From assembly GCF_001006005.1 (NCBI RefSeq), contig NZ_CP011254.1, positions 2,108,001-2,172,000 on the forward strand: 64,000 nt of DNA, given 5' to 3'. The notes under the pieces are model-generated. The model was given only the letters and a program-made list of their open reading frames with translations, did not search any database and was not told where the DNA came from. Origin of the DNA: Serratia fonticola. Its GTDB lineage: Bacteria > Pseudomonadota > Gammaproteobacteria > Enterobacterales > Enterobacteriaceae. The first letter of the stretch is position 1, and every line of letters begins with the position of its first letter. The translations under genes and the position numbers were made by a program. Below are positions 3,056-57,801 of this stretch, piece after piece.

Positions 3056-3103
3056 TGGAAAGCGCGTGGAAGCGAGTTTTCCCTTTACCAATCAATGGTG
3101 CCT

Positions 3104-5266
3104 ATGGACGTTTCCGACCTGCTCGACAGCATGAATGATAAACAACGTGAAGCCGTGGCTGCGCCACGCAGCAACCTGTTGGTGCTGGCCGGTGCAGGCA
3201 GCGGCAAGACCCGGGTGCTGGTGCATCGCATTGCCTGGCTACTGGCGGTAGAGAACTGCTCGCCGTACTCCATCATGGCGGTGACTTTCACCAACAAGGC
3301 GGCGGCAGAGATGCGCCACCGTATCGAACACCTGATTGGCACCAGCCAGGGCGGTATGTGGATCGGCACCTTCCACGGCTTGGCGCACCGCCTGCTGCGC
3401 GCTCATCATATGGACGCCAACCTGCCGCAGGACTTCCAGATCCTGGATAGTGAAGATCAACTGCGCCTGCTGAAACGCATCGTGCGGGCGCTGAACATTG
3501 ACGAGAAGCAATGGCCGCCGCGCCAGGCGATGTGGTACATCAACGGCAAGAAAGATGATGGCCTACGCCCGCAGCATATCGAAAGCTATGGCAACCCGGT
3601 GGAAGCCACCTGGCTGCGGATCTATCAGGCTTATCAGGAGGCTTGCGATCGTGCAGGGCTGGTCGATTTTGCCGAATTGCTGTTGCGCGCCCATGAGCTG
3701 TGGCTGAACAAGCCGCATATCCTCAATCATTATCGTGAGCGCTTCACCAATATCCTGGTGGACGAATTCCAGGACACCAACCGCATCCAGTACGCCTGGA
3801 TCCACATGCTGGCCGGGGGCAAGGCCAACGTGATGATCGTGGGGGATGATGACCAGTCGATCTACGGCTGGCGTGGTGCGCAGGTGGAAAACATCCAGCG
3901 TTTCCTGAAGGATTTCCCCGGTGCAGAAACGGTGCGTCTGGAGCAGAACTATCGCTCGACCAGCACCATCCTGAAGGCCGCCAACACCCTGATCGCCAAT
4001 AACGACGGGCGCATGGGCAAAAACCTGTGGACCGAAGGGGCCGAAGGCGAGCCGATCTCGATTTACTGTGCGTTCAACGAGCTGGATGAAGCCCGCTTTG
4101 TGGTTAACCGCATCAAGGCCTGGCAGGACAACGGCGGCGCGCTGAACGACTGCGCCATCCTGTATCGCAGCAACGCCCAATCGCGCGTGCTGGAAGAGGC
4201 CTTGTTGCAAACTGCCATGCCATACCGCATTTACGGCGGCATGCGCTTCTTCGAACGCCAGGAGATCAAGGATGCTCTGGCCTATCTGCGACTGATCGCC
4301 AACCGTAACGATGATGCGGCCTTTGAGCGTGTCGTGAATACCCCAACGCGCGGCATTGGCGATCGCACCCTCGACGTAGTGCGCCAGGCGGCACGAGACC
4401 GTCAACTGACGCTGTGGCAGGCTACCCGTGCGCTGCTGCAAGATAAGGTGCTGGCGGGCCGTGCAGCGTCCTCCCTGCAGCGTTTTCTGGAGCTGGTGGA
4501 CTCACTGGCCCACGAAACCGCCGAAATGCCGTTGCATGTGCAAACCGACCGGGTGATCCGCGATTCCGGGCTGTTTATCATGTATGAGCAGGAAAAGGGC
4601 GAGAAGGGCCAGGCGCGTATCGAAAACCTTGAGGAACTGGTCACGGCCACGCGCCAATACAGCTACCAGGATGAAGATCAGGATCTGATGCCGTTGCAGG
4701 CCTTCCTGTCCCATGCCGCGTTGGAAGCGGGGGAAGGGCAGGCAGATGCCTATCAGGACGCGGTGCAGCTGATGACCCTGCACTCGGCCAAAGGGTTGGA
4801 GTTCCGCCAGGTGTTTATCGTCGGTATGGAAGAGGGTATGTTCCCAAGCCAGATGTCGCTGGACGAAGGTGGCCGCCTGGAAGAGGAGCGCCGTCTGGCC
4901 TATGTTGGCCTGACCCGTGCAATGCAAAAATTGACGCTGACCTATGCGGAAACCCGCCGCCTGTATGGCAAAGAGGTGTATCACCGGCCATCACGCTTTA
5001 TCGGTGAGATCCCGGAAGACTGTGTGGAAGAGGTGCGCCTGCGGGCCAGCGTCTCCCGCTCGGTAAGCCACCGCCGGATGGGGACGCCGATCAGTGAAAG
5101 CGACACTGGTTACAAGCTTGGGCAGCGCGTGCGCCATGCCAAGTTTGGCGAGGGCACCATCGTCAACCTGGAAGGCAGTGGGGAGCACAGCCGGTTGCAG
5201 ATCGCGTTTCAGGGTGAAGGTATCAAGTGGCTGGTAGCAGCCTACGCCAAGCTGGAAACGGTATAA
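3104..5266 (+). CDS. uvrD: DNA helicase II UvrD
   Basis: ATP-dependent 3'-5' superfamily 1A helicase of nucleotide excision and mismatch repair. It has 720 residues, as in E. coli. Visible motifs are Walker A GAGSGKT (about 29-35), VDEFQDTN (motif II, about 219-226), DDDQSIYGWRGA (motif III), QNYRST (motif IV), TLHSAKGLEF (motif V) and VGLTRAM (motif VI). The C-terminal Tudor-like region (GQRVRHAKFGEGTIVN) binds partners. An in-frame ATG three codons upstream (3095) is possible, but MDVSDLL matches the E. coli N-terminus. It is SOS regulated through the box at 3040-3055. Confidence 0.97.
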   Translation: MDVSDLLDSMNDKQREAVAAPRSNLLVLAGAGSGKTRVLVHRIAWLLAVENCSPYSIMAVTFTNKAAAEMRHRIEHLIGTSQGGMWIGTFHGLAHRLLRAHHMDANLPQDFQILDSEDQLRLLKRIVRALNIDEKQWPPRQAMWYINGKKDDGLRPQHIESYGNPVEATWLRIYQAYQEACDRAGLVDFAELLLRAHELWLNKPHILNHYRERFTNILVDEFQDTNRIQYAWIHMLAGGKANVMIVGDDDQSIYGWRGAQVENIQRFLKDFPGAETVRLEQNYRSTSTILKAANTLIANNDGRMGKNLWTEGAEGEPISIYCAFNELDEARFVVNRIKAWQDNGGALNDCAILYRSNAQSRVLEEALLQTAMPYRIYGGMRFFERQEIKDALAYLRLIANRNDDAAFERVVNTPTRGIGDRTLDVVRQAARDRQLTLWQATRALLQDKVLAGRAASSLQRFLELVDSLAHETAEMPLHVQTDRVIRDSGLFIMYEQEKGEKGQARIENLEELVTATRQYSYQDEDQDLMPLQAFLSHAALEAGEGQADAYQDAVQLMTLHSAKGLEFRQVFIVGMEEGMFPSQMSLDEGGRLEEERRLAYVGLTRAMQKLTLTYAETRRLYGKEVYHRPSRFIGEIPEDCVEEVRLRASVSRSVSHRRMGTPISESDTGYKLGQRVRHAKFGEGTIVNLEGSGEHSRLQIAFQGEGIKWLVAAYAKLETV

Positions 5267-5317
5267 CGGGGCTCTTACAGGTGAAAATAGCGTCGCTATC
5301 TCCCTCACCCTAACCCT

Positions 5318-5515
5318 TATGTCTTGATCTTCTCCGCCTTAGCGGAGAAGATCCCCGACTGATCATCGGGAGATAGCCGGTGAGCTCCCCCTAACCCTAG
5401 TGCCTATGAGCCCGTGGGAGAGATTGTGCCCCGGCTGTCTATTTCCCTGTCGCCTTCTAGACCGAACGGTATCCTGTGCCTATGAGCACCCACATATAAG
5501 GATGGTCCGGCGATA
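5318..5515 (+). ncRNA. Predicted IS110 bridge RNA
   Basis: The region upstream of the transposase has the layout of a bridge (seek) RNA. A 5' hairpin has a perfect 12-bp stem (5326-5337 with 5342-5353). A target-binding loop is closed by 5371-5380 with 5431-5440, and a donor-binding loop by CGCC/GACC (5451-5454, 5460-5463) with GGTC/GGCG (5504-5507, 5509-5512). The target loop holds CCCTAACCCT (5389-5398), identical to the left flank, and GGGAGAG (5416-5422), complementary to the right flank. The donor loop holds ACGGTATC (5466-5473), identical to the right end of the element, and ATAAG (5496-5500), complementary to its left end plus core. Both loops share GTGCCTATGAGC. The exact transcript ends are unknown. 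Confidence 0.85.
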
Positions 5516-5544
5516 AATTTCAGACATGGTTATGGAGTGCCATA

Positions 5545-6504
5545 ATGCGTAGAACCCCTGTCGGCGTTGATATCGCCAAACACAAATTTGATGTCGCCGT
5601 ACTGCTGGACAATCAGAAGTATAAAACCAAAAAGTTTGCCAATACCCCTTCTGGATGCCGCGAGTTCGCAGCCTGGTTGAGCCGCTTTGGCGACTGTCAT
5701 GTCTGTATGGAAGCCACCGGGAGCTACAGTACGGAACTGGCCACTTATCTGGCAGACAACAACTACCACGTCAGTCTGATGAACCCGGCGTGTATCCATT
5801 CCTTCGGCAATACAGAACTGGCCCGGAACAAAACGGACAAAAGCGATGCAGCGATGATAGCCCGCTACTGCGCACTGCATCAGCCTGACCCGTGGTTCCC
5901 AGCCCCGTTGAGCGAACGCCAGTTGACCGCGTTGGTCAGGCATCTTAAGAACCTGGAAGAGATGCGTCAGATGGAAGAAAATCGCCTGGAGGTGGCCGAA
6001 GCAGTCATCGTCCCTTCACTCAATGAGCACATCGCCACGTTGGATGAACTGATACGAGAAACGAAGAAGAAAATCAGTCAGCACATCGATGATAACCCTG
6101 ACCTGAAACGGGACAGCGAGTTGCTAAAAAGTATCCCTGGAGTGGGAGAGATGCTGAGCTCCAGCCTGCTGGCCTTCGCAGGAAACCTGCGTCGGTTCAC
6201 CAGCAGCAAGGCCCTGGTAGCGTACGCAGGACTGAATCCACAGCGATGTGAGTCGGGGATGTTTAAAGGGAAAAGCCGGTTATCGAAAGTGGGACACGGT
6301 GAGCTACGAAGCGCGTTATACATGCCCGCGGTGGTGGCAAGCCAATACAATGTTGTGGTTAAAGACTTAACAGAAAGGCTGAAGTTGCGTGGGAAATCGG
6401 GCAAAGAGAGAGTGTGTGCGGCGATGCGAAAACTGCTGCAACTGGCCTATGGTGTGGTGAAATCAGGAAAGACATTTAATGCGGAAATACCGCTTGCCGG
6501 ATAG
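5545..6504 (+). CDS. IS110-family transposase (DEDD plus Ser recombinase)
   Basis: A 319-residue RNA-guided recombinase. The N-terminal RuvC-like domain shows the DEDD set: D9 (GVDIAK), E56 (MEATGSY), D98 and D101 (KTDKSDA). The C-terminal Tnp domain follows a helical linker (about 125-190). It contains a helix-hairpin-helix-like IPGVGEML and the presumed catalytic serine S237 in CESGMFKGKSRLSKVG. GGAG lies nine bases before the ATG. The gene starts right after the predicted bridge RNA, the arrangement of the IS110 group with the RNA in the left end. Confidence 0.95.
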   Translation: MRRTPVGVDIAKHKFDVAVLLDNQKYKTKKFANTPSGCREFAAWLSRFGDCHVCMEATGSYSTELATYLADNNYHVSLMNPACIHSFGNTELARNKTDKSDAAMIARYCALHQPDPWFPAPLSERQLTALVRHLKNLEEMRQMEENRLEVAEAVIVPSLNEHIATLDELIRETKKKISQHIDDNPDLKRDSELLKSIPGVGEMLSSSLLAFAGNLRRFTSSKALVAYAGLNPQRCESGMFKGKSRLSKVGHGELRSALYMPAVVASQYNVVVKDLTERLKLRGKSGKERVCAAMRKLLQLAYGVVKSGKTFNAEIPLAG

Positions 6505-6648
6505 CCGACAAGACGGTATCTCTCCCAAAGGGCTAGGGGACCGATCGAGTTAGCTATCAATTGCCGAAACTTACCTGCACACGGTAGCGGAATTACGGCG
6601 CCGTACTAGCTCCCTCTCCTTTTTGGGGAGAGGGTTAGGGTGAGGGGG

Positions 6649-7122
6649 TCAGTGTGCGAAACGATCGCCCACTTTGGCAGTGGCATACCAGCGCATCACC
6701 GCTTCGATCCCCTCGCCACCTTCTGGTGGAGCCCAATGCATACAGTCTTCTTCGCCGAGCGCCTGATAAGGCCCCTGCTTCACTTCAAACACCACGCCAC
6801 CCGGATCGACAGACAGCACGGCATGCCAGGTAAACGCCGGCATCTCCAGCACCTTGGTTTCTTCGCCTAGCAGGGTGCGTTGGGTGACCACGCCTTCGTC
6901 ATTGAACTGCAGCACCACGAAACGGCCACGCAGCGGAGTGAGTAACTCCCAGGTCTGCGGGTGGCGGTGTGGGCGAATATAGGTGCCAGGTTCCATGGCA
7001 ATTGCCAGGCGTTGCACCGGATCGCTCAACTCTTCATGTAAGGTACGGTGGGCACGCAGGCGTGGCAGTGTCGCTGCCTGTTCGCTCATGGTCGTCAAGT
7101 CGTGGGCGGTAATCTGTTTCAT
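6649..7122 (-). CDS. WbuC-like cupin-fold metalloprotein
   Basis: A 157-residue single-domain cupin. The metal-binding motif is visible as RPHRHPQTWELL (two His, one Glu) around residues 48-59, with a further His in TWHAVLS near 100. The start KQITAHDL and the LPRLRAHRTLHEELSDPVQR stretch resemble E. coli WbuC, which sits in some O-antigen loci but whose reaction is unknown. The internal ATG at 7122 is preferred over 7137 because it matches the WbuC N-terminus. It is not near polysaccharide genes here; it is divergent from corA and its stop abuts the repeat carrying the IS. The substrate is not predictable. Confidence 0.8.
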   Translation of the reverse strand: MKQITAHDLTTMSEQAATLPRLRAHRTLHEELSDPVQRLAIAMEPGTYIRPHRHPQTWELLTPLRGRFVVLQFNDEGVVTQRTLLGEETKVLEMPAFTWHAVLSVDPGGVVFEVKQGPYQALGEEDCMHWAPPEGGEGIEAVMRWYATAKVGDRFAH

Positions 7123-7284
7123 GTCGTTAATCCGCAATATTTCTGTGCGCTAATCTTAGCAAGATTCGTGGCTGCGGTCAGAGATCGCGACGCGGTTTTC
7201 CATCAGGCGTGGTCAAGGTTGCGGGAGTGTTACAAACCAGCCGCGAGCGTGCTGGATTGTTGCGCGATTATCCACCCTAACCGG

Positions 7285-41616: not shown

Positions 41617-41833
41617 CCCCTCACCCCAGCCTATGCCCGAGGGCGTCATAAACACTTGTGTGGGGGAGAGGGAGCTAGCCCGGAGCCTCAGTTAGATGCA
41701 GGAGATAACTTGTAGCACGCTAATACCTGCTTCTGTGGGGAAGGGGCGATAGGGGGGCAGCAGAATAAACTCAGAGATTAATTTGTGGCACGGGCGGTCC
41801 CCTCTCCCTGTGGGAGAGGGTTAGGGTGAGGGG
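41617..41833. repeat. REP-like composite repeat after rpoH
   Basis: Inverted ends CCCCTCACCCC (41617-41627) and GGGTTAGGGTGAGGGG (41818-41833) enclose about 190 bp, with GGGAGAGGGAGCTAGCCCGG inside the left end and the hairpin CCCTCTCCC-TGT-GGGAGAGGG at the right end. It fills the gap between rpoH and the convergent TPR gene and contains an unoccupied copy of the IS110 target. Confidence 0.75.
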
Positions 41834-57643: not shown

Positions 57644-57801
57644 CCCCTCACCCCGACCCTCTCCCACAGGGAGAGGGAGCTAGTCCGGAGTATTTGATGA
57701 GGTTGTGCTGCTTCGGGAAGTGGGGAGTAAGGGTCTTACGCAGAAAAATCAGCGAGCTCGATCGGTCCCCTCTCCCTGTGGGAGAGGGTTAGGGTGAGGG
57801 G
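57644..57801. repeat. REP-like composite repeat after ugpQ
   Basis: Two hairpins in inverted orientation, CCCTCTCCC-ACA-GGGAGAGGG (57657-57677) and CCCTCTCCC-TGT-GGGAGAGGG (57768-57788), framed by CCCCTCACCCC and GGGTTAGGGTGAGGGG. The CGATCGGTCCCC tail is also present beside the IS110. It is the best uninterrupted reference for the IS110 target and probably ends ugp transcription. Confidence 0.8.

Follow-up and report, generated by a model that had tools for sequence, protein, structure and literature searches.

The question raised at this locus is whether the non-coding DNA upstream of an IS110-family recombinase gene encodes an RNA that specifies the very site into which the element has inserted. 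The sequence-only reading had proposed that it does, describing an IS110 bridge RNA whose guides can be read against its own insertion site. Protein family, a covariance model (R1), helix covariation, an empty orthologous site and guide-flank covariation all agree with this proposal, and we conclude that the locus is an IS621-type IS110 insertion sequence with a bridge RNA that guides it to its target repeat (probability roughly 0.96). Positions below are those of the window, the whole 64-kb stretch of DNA that was analysed.

The element, its recombinase and its target repeat

The element and its surroundings comprise the following features.

5318-6521, + strand: IS110-family element of the IS621 type; six genomic copies share exactly this stretch, and an orthologous empty site is available
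5316-5317, + strand: left copy of the CT core; a lone CT stands there in the empty site (L090)
6513-6521, + strand: right element end, made up of the left donor sequence ACGGTAT and the CT core
6520-6526, + strand: CT core and right target, CTCTCCC; identical in all six genomic copies
5301-5317, + strand: left portion of the target repeat that the element interrupts, TCCCTCACCCTAACCCT, ending in the CT core
6626-6644, − strand: intact inverted copy of the target repeat (genome 2114626-2114644; compare L090)
5545-6504, + strand: recombinase gene, 319 aa (Pfam PF01548 and PF02371; NCBIfam NF033542; alignment to 8wt6 and 9t56)

With one CT core counted at its right end the element is 1204 bp long (it could equally be placed at 5316-6519), and the 2-bp core is present at both of its junctions and single in the empty site. 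Its neighbours are what we take to be a UvrD-like helicase gene (3095-5266) on one side and, on the other, a small gene of cupin-like type on the minus strand (6649-7137). The ends carry no long inverted repeats: comparing the first with the last 40 nt, the longest exact inverted match was 6 nt (GTCTTG, 3 nt from the left end and 7 nt from the right), a length equalled in 485 of 2000 shuffles, and subterminal inverted repeats of the IS1111 type (about 11-13 bp) are absent within these 40 nt.

The recombinase contains the Pfam domains DEDD_Tnp_IS110 and Transposase_20 and matches the NCBIfam model NF033542, 'IS110 family RNA-guided transposase', above its cut-off. Among solved structures it matched ISCro4 (E 9.4e-76) and IS621 (E 8.4e-74). 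Its residues D9, E56, D98, D101 and S237 align with D11, E60, D102, D105 and S241, which the available text of PMC11208158 gives as the catalytic residues of IS621; both the DEDD RuvC domain and the Transposase_20 domain with its catalytic serine are present, as in the IS621 type. The anatomy could be as described and the element nonetheless inactive today, its RNA recording a past insertion, a state of affairs that is compatible with the family assignment, does not compete with it for odds, and which we consider unlikely: relative to the window copy the other five carry 0, 0, 1, 1 and 10 base differences, the recombinase frame is without internal stops in all six, and the catalytic residues are kept, which together argue for recent movement.

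All six copies of the element in this genome occupy the same kind of site, CCCTCACCC(T/C)AACCC-CT-CTCCC, and their surroundings diverge outside this target repeat. Across the genome there are 235 intact copies of the repeat, CYCACCCYAACCCTCTCCC (123 forward, 112 reverse; 0 for a reversed control pattern), from which it follows that the element settles in repeats; we regard the target as a REP-like palindromic repeat. The exact 15-mer matching the guide described below has 113 occurrences, and thus at least 122 of the 235 repeats are of the C type. Among the 100 repeat places listed, many form inverted pairs a few hundred bases apart. Several listed pairs (for example genome 193846/193983 and 306191/306328) carry T at one end and C at the other; the pair beside the element does not. 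The window holds three intact copies, at 6626-6644, 41812-41830 and 57780-57798, and the first of these is probably the partner end of the same repeat unit as the interrupted copy. To the right of the L005 copy (genome 553932-555156) lies a second, different mobile element with ends TGTACAGACC, which appears to have inserted in the right half of the target repeat beside the IS110 copy.

Among six other genomes of the genus, one (G005) has an empty orthologous site, with the sequence CCCTCACCCTAACCCTCTCCCAAAGGGC and a single CT (L090). This empty site fixes the insertion point and shows that the insertion added nothing beyond the element and one CT. At the orthologous place G001 (L091) has an uninterrupted C-type repeat followed by a different unit, and the orthologous gaps at L089, L092, L093 and L094 contain no such repeat.

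A distant DNA search gave no match in E. coli genomes and two plasmid records, both from Ca. Fukatsuia; a protein search of genome contigs returned a single truncated relative; viral contigs yielded one distant relative with the alignment query and none with query P0017; and when the family was sampled again with P0017, all matches fell in genomes already represented. In the open literature searched we found no description of the element or its repeat, and a text search of the openly available articles for the repeat sequence found none on bacterial repeats.

The bridge RNA and its guides

The RNA would occupy the region upstream of the recombinase gene, with the parts listed here.

5326-5353, + strand: 5′ hairpin of the bridge RNA, from the predicted fold; it lies outside the alignment of 17 relatives and outside model R1
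5371-5440, + strand: target-binding hairpin and loop (fold, R1 match and helix covariation)
5448-5515, + strand: donor-binding hairpin and loop (fold, R1 match and helix covariation)
5389-5398, + strand: left target guide, a 10-nt match (the 9-nt guide in the IS621 manner is 5390-5398)
5416-5422, + strand: right target guide GGGAGAG, 7 nt, an exact match
5423-5424, + strand: AT after the right target guide, a putative handshake guide (from the sequence and the IS621 handshake description available in PMC11208158)
5466-5473, + strand: left donor guide ACGGTATC, invariant in seven aligned elements
5496-5500, + strand: right donor guide ATAAG, invariant in seven aligned elements

The 227 nt before the transposase gene had been described as folding into a 5′ hairpin and two loops, and the predicted fold agrees: 5318-5544 has a folding energy of -87.1 kcal/mol, where shuffled sequences average -65.4 (z = -4.67; none of 200 shuffles was as stable), with a second small hairpin besides the 5′ hairpin. 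In this upstream non-coding region the target loop comes first and the donor loop second. Inside the loops of the minimum-energy fold the guides pair weakly with one another, and in the consensus of the 17 relatives both loops are largely open.

That consensus has 26 pairs, 23 of them with compensatory changes. Model R1, built from the same region of the 17 relatives with the window sequence excluded, recovered 5361-5509 at E = 1.7e-22 as its only match up to E = 10 in the 64-kb window, so that the covariance check the sequence-only reading had proposed comes out in its favour. On 24 further loci R1 matched 21 at E ≤ 1e-6 and gave no match at L018, L063 and L066; a set of 62 loci, which includes the 17 model members and further copies of the same elements and excludes those three, matched throughout at E ≤ 0.001. 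In the alignment of these 62 loci, which was fitted to the R1 structure and therefore favours it, 24 of 26 pairs are changed on both sides and the bases pair in 88.0% of cells, against 25.8-42.9% when the structure is slid by 1-3 columns. Four of five covariation measures were reached by none of 500 column shuffles; the count of 24 pairs changed on both sides is only slightly above the shuffles (mean 20.8, reached by 12 of 500). Searching Rfam over 5201-6700 gave no match up to E = 1.

All four guide-site matches that had been claimed are exact at every base, with 'complement' in that account to be understood as reverse complement. In the target loop, 5389-5398 equals 5308-5317 (CCCTAACCCT), which ends on the CT core as had been stated, and 5416-5422 is the reverse complement of 6520-6526. 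In the donor loop, 5466-5473 equals 6513-6520 (ACGGTATC) and 5496-5500 is the reverse complement of 5316-5320. The donor guides match the joined element ends apart from the last core base: the left donor guide continues with C after ACGGTATC and the element end with T. In a comparison of 5473-5475 with 6520-6521, sister elements carry T, C or A where the left donor guide has C. Given this variation among six sisters, it seems that the left donor guide does not read the final base of the core. The AT at 5423-5424 could, under the handshake model, pair with the AT that precedes the donor core (6518-6519).

The two loops also share a string, as the sequence-only reading had remarked: over 12 nt the apices of the target loop (5400-5411) and the donor loop (5476-5487) are the same, both reading GTGCCTATGAGC. 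The target apex of six sister elements is different, of the GGCTTAAAGC type, which suggests that the donor apex was copied into the target loop in the lineage of the window element.

Since both the repeat and the loop are rich in C, matches of this kind might arise from chance or base composition. When the 227 nt were dinucleotide-shuffled 20000 times, the 10-nt left match turned up in 14 shuffles, the 8-nt donor match in 36 and the 7-nt right match in as many as 596; the left and right target matches together occurred in none. The permutation tests on 34 guide pairs described below refute the explanation, and we regard chance as having next to no probability.

Guide-flank covariation among relatives and the sites that do not fit

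If the target loop carries the address, it should vary among relatives together with the DNA beside each element. The earlier proposal had named this covariation as a check, and it is present. Guide columns were fixed by model R1, and a left end could be placed in 55 of the 62 loci (the exceptions being L027, L048, L050, L055, L065, L083 and L084); the left-end search required CTT, which fixes two of the nine compared positions, those of the core, by construction, and for L007, L033 and L071 the left end was placed manually on the basis of the sequence. The left guide matched its own left flank at all nine positions at 27 sites and at at least eight of nine at 44 of the 55. For 34 distinct guide pairs, with one site taken per pair, the mean match was 7.97 of 9 positions to the own flank against 4.38 to the flanks of other elements, the largest value among 100000 permutations being 5.62; in 28 of the 34 rows no other flank matched better than the own one. 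Restricted to the seven non-core positions, the means were 6.03 and 2.44. When each of the 30 distinct left guides was represented by its worst site, the values were 5.60 against 2.28 of 7, with a permutation maximum of 3.53. L015, L028, L033 and L037 were omitted from the 34-pair matrix, their guide being that of L071/L073, and were included in the 55-site count and the worst-site test.

For the right guide, the 23 elements with a right flank gave 5.30 against 3.70 of 7 (permutation maximum 4.91), a signal that comes mostly from the core and the two adjoining bases. An earlier test, which left out L017 (where the contig ends at the core) and took the best match anywhere in the loop of 24 elements, gave 8.04 against 5.92 of 9 for the left guide and was weaker on the right (5.67 against 4.93 of 7; p = 0.00075 without the core); it was replaced by the fixed-column test.

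The pattern of conservation points the same way. In an alignment of the window element with six sister elements of 58-63% protein identity, mean column entropy was 1.46 in the seven non-core columns of the left target guide, 1.35 in the five non-core columns of the right target guide and 0.47 in other columns, and both donor guides were invariant across the seven. With variable target guides and invariant donor guides, the RNA is conserved except where the target is read.

These comparisons bear on a rival in which the recombinase itself recognises the repeat and the guide-like strings are captured leftovers of the repeat without a role. That all six genomic copies sit in one repeat family is what such protein specificity predicts, and this genome alone cannot separate it from guidance by RNA. 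However, relatives that share the donor loop and differ in the target loop are inserted at different targets, which fit the loops they carry, and captured leftovers would not account for matches at fixed model columns, on both halves of the target and in opposite sense; we therefore consider protein specificity very improbable and retain guidance by the bridge RNA.

L007, a truncated copy from Serratia silvae (90% identity over 72 residues), lacks the donor loop, the gene start and most of the gene, apparently through a deletion between two CCCTGTCG repeats, and L009 in G004 has the same upstream sequence. Guide and left flank both read TCTAACCCT in L007, and both read CCTAACCCT in the window element. 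Repeats carrying the T of the L007 flank are rare in both backgrounds: in G004 a single intact CYCACTCYAACCCTCTCCC, which takes the form CTCACTCCAACCC, compares with 23 CYCACCCYAACCCTCTCCC, and the genome of the window has three CYCACTCYAACCCTCTCCC against 235 CYCACCCYAACCCTCTCCC. The co-change in L007 accords with a base-for-base correspondence of guide and target, and as one event it proves nothing alone. Seven plasmid-borne copies of related IS110 elements (L074, L078, L079, L081, L083, L085 and L086) have an annotated antirestriction gene as their nearest upstream neighbour; the left target ends in ACATCCT in five of these copies and in ACTTCCT in L086, and is unplaced in L083.

Eleven of the 55 sites fell below eight of nine: L015, L028, L033, L037, L041, L017, L019, L049, L024, L054 and L082. 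An unchanged guide at unrelated targets had been put forward as evidence that would speak against a guiding RNA, and one relative provides such a case: the G152 copies L015, L028, L033 and L037 share one guide, TTGCGCCCT, and one right flank, and have left junctions that do not match. Their common right flank fits the core and three bases beyond. Copies of the same element on Ca. Fukatsuia plasmids fit the guide (L071 at 9/9, L073 at 8/9; L072 has the same junction as L071), and because the odd G152 copies have the right flank of L071 we read their left junctions as later, secondary rearrangements, an explanation that falls short of proof. L028 and L037 have a new left junction similar to the donor end (ACGGTATCT), and L033 and L015 contain two copies of the element's first part at a distance of 88 nt; such junctions may have come about through decay or through recombination at pseudo-donor sites. 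Elsewhere, the gene of L019 contains a stop codon and L082 (0/9) is probably out of register. L049, a relative of 45% identity, has the right guide GGGAGAG and right flank CTCTCCC of the window element with a different left guide, and its left target match is only 7/9.

Possible wobble pairing, proposed mechanism and known systems

Within the genome the six copies divide between four T sites, where the guide fits at all nine positions, and two C sites (L004 = L013 and L005 = L010), where a target C stands opposite a guide U. G-U wobble could accommodate the target C in L004 and L005, and a guide U could serve for the T form and the C form alike. We examined mismatches across the family, counting as wobble type a guide U with a target C or a guide G with a target A. 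Among 14 distinct guide-site pairs with a single mismatch, nine were of the wobble type, one was the reverse transition and four were transversions (9 against 1, p = 0.021, in a subset chosen after the pattern had been seen); over all mismatches in 20 imperfect pairs the corresponding numbers were 11, 5 and 16, and 11 against 5 is not significant (p = 0.21). Wobble as a general rule, favoured in the single-mismatch subset only, was not retained. IS621 itself displays a mismatch of the wobble type: according to the available text of PMC11208160, 129 of 173 insertion sites are at ATCAGGCCTAC and two at ATCGGGCCTAC, the sequence that the guide encodes. The word 'wobble' is absent from the main texts of PMC11208160, PMC11208158 and PMC11187229, and among the papers from 2024 onwards listed on these subjects only PMC13142463 shows it, one that by its abstract concerns another system. 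Tentatively, guides directed at a polymorphic dispersed repeat may be deliberately degenerate, a U or G pairing with both repeat alleles by G-U wobble such that one RNA addresses a whole family, although we hold this to be rather less probable than its opposite. Such a rule, if true, would bear on the specificity of bridge-RNA tools.

As described in the available portions of PMC11208160 and PMC11208158, joining of the ends in the excised IS621 circle restores a promoter, the RNA that is made binds the recombinase and pairs through its loops with target and donor, and strands are exchanged at the core. By analogy with these IS621 experiments, the window element would be transcribed, its RNA bound and its strands exchanged in the same way. 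Excision would join the two ends and thereby create a promoter, from which a bridge RNA of about 180-200 nt would be made. The first loop would pair with both strands of the target repeat through the left guide CCUAACCCU and the right guide GGGAGAG, and the second with the joined element ends (ACGGTAT-CT-TAT); the RNA-bound recombinase would then join target and donor at CT, adding only the element and one CT. One further feature belongs to this proposal.

6494-6499, + strand: candidate -35 box TTGCCG, 17 nt before TATCT (6517-6521) and T (5318) in the circle

Promoter aside, all sequence features of the IS621 type are found in the window element; the promoter candidate, TTGCCG-17-TATCTT, is the best-scoring pair at the joined ends, a weak match with 8 of 12 consensus bases.

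The likeness to IS621, so far as the accessible text of Durrant et al. 2024/Hiraizumi et al. 2024 (PMC11208160, PMC11208158) describes it, extends to the upstream non-coding RNA with a 5′ hairpin and a target loop followed by a donor loop, to a left guide that pairs with the bottom strand and a right guide that pairs with the top strand, and to the CT core, the conserved donor, the DEDD and serine recombinase and a REP-type repeat as target. The window element differs in its protein, which is about 45% identical (L056); in its target, another palindromic repeat (CCCTCACCCYAACCCTCTCCC) rather than the E. coli REP; in its right guide, which matches seven bases against four in IS621, longer right guides being reported for some orthologues in the same sources; and in the end of its donor match, which lies 16 nt after the stop codon against 106 in IS621. 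ISCro4 (PDB 9t56), the best sequence match among solved structures, was compared by protein only.

The seekRNAs of IS1111/IS110 elements, ISEc11 and ISEc21 among them (Siddiquee et al. 2024, PMC11187229, in the available text), likewise derive from a non-coding region and have short matches to both target strands, and natural re-direction is reported there between the relatives ISEc11 and ISXne4. The seekRNA is shorter, however, and IS1111 types usually have the RNA downstream together with subterminal inverted repeats of 11-13 bp. In the window element the RNA lies upstream and not downstream of the gene, and the right-end match ACGGTATC ends only 16 nt past the stop codon; its arrangement is therefore not that of IS1111. 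ISPpu9, ISPpu10 and ISPa11 (Tobes and Pareja 2006, PMC1525189, in the text available) likewise have a single insertion point in a dispersed palindromic repeat, with a 2-bp repeat at the junction of ISPpu9 and ISPpu10 as in the window element; they differ in host and repeat, and that report predates the RNA mechanism.

Mechanism, covariation and REP targeting are already in print (PMC11208160, PMC11187229, PMC1525189), and the agreement between guide and site is expected from the published IS621 and seekRNA work; it is a confirmation, not a discovery. What we observed directly is the anatomy of the element, its target, the empty site, membership of the RNA family and guide-flank covariation. 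As the locus demonstrates, where an RNA-guided insertion sequence is addressed can be read from raw sequence and checked against the host genome and the empty site of a relative. The family also gains a well-defined element whose right guide has seven bases and whose target is a dispersed repeat other than that of E. coli.
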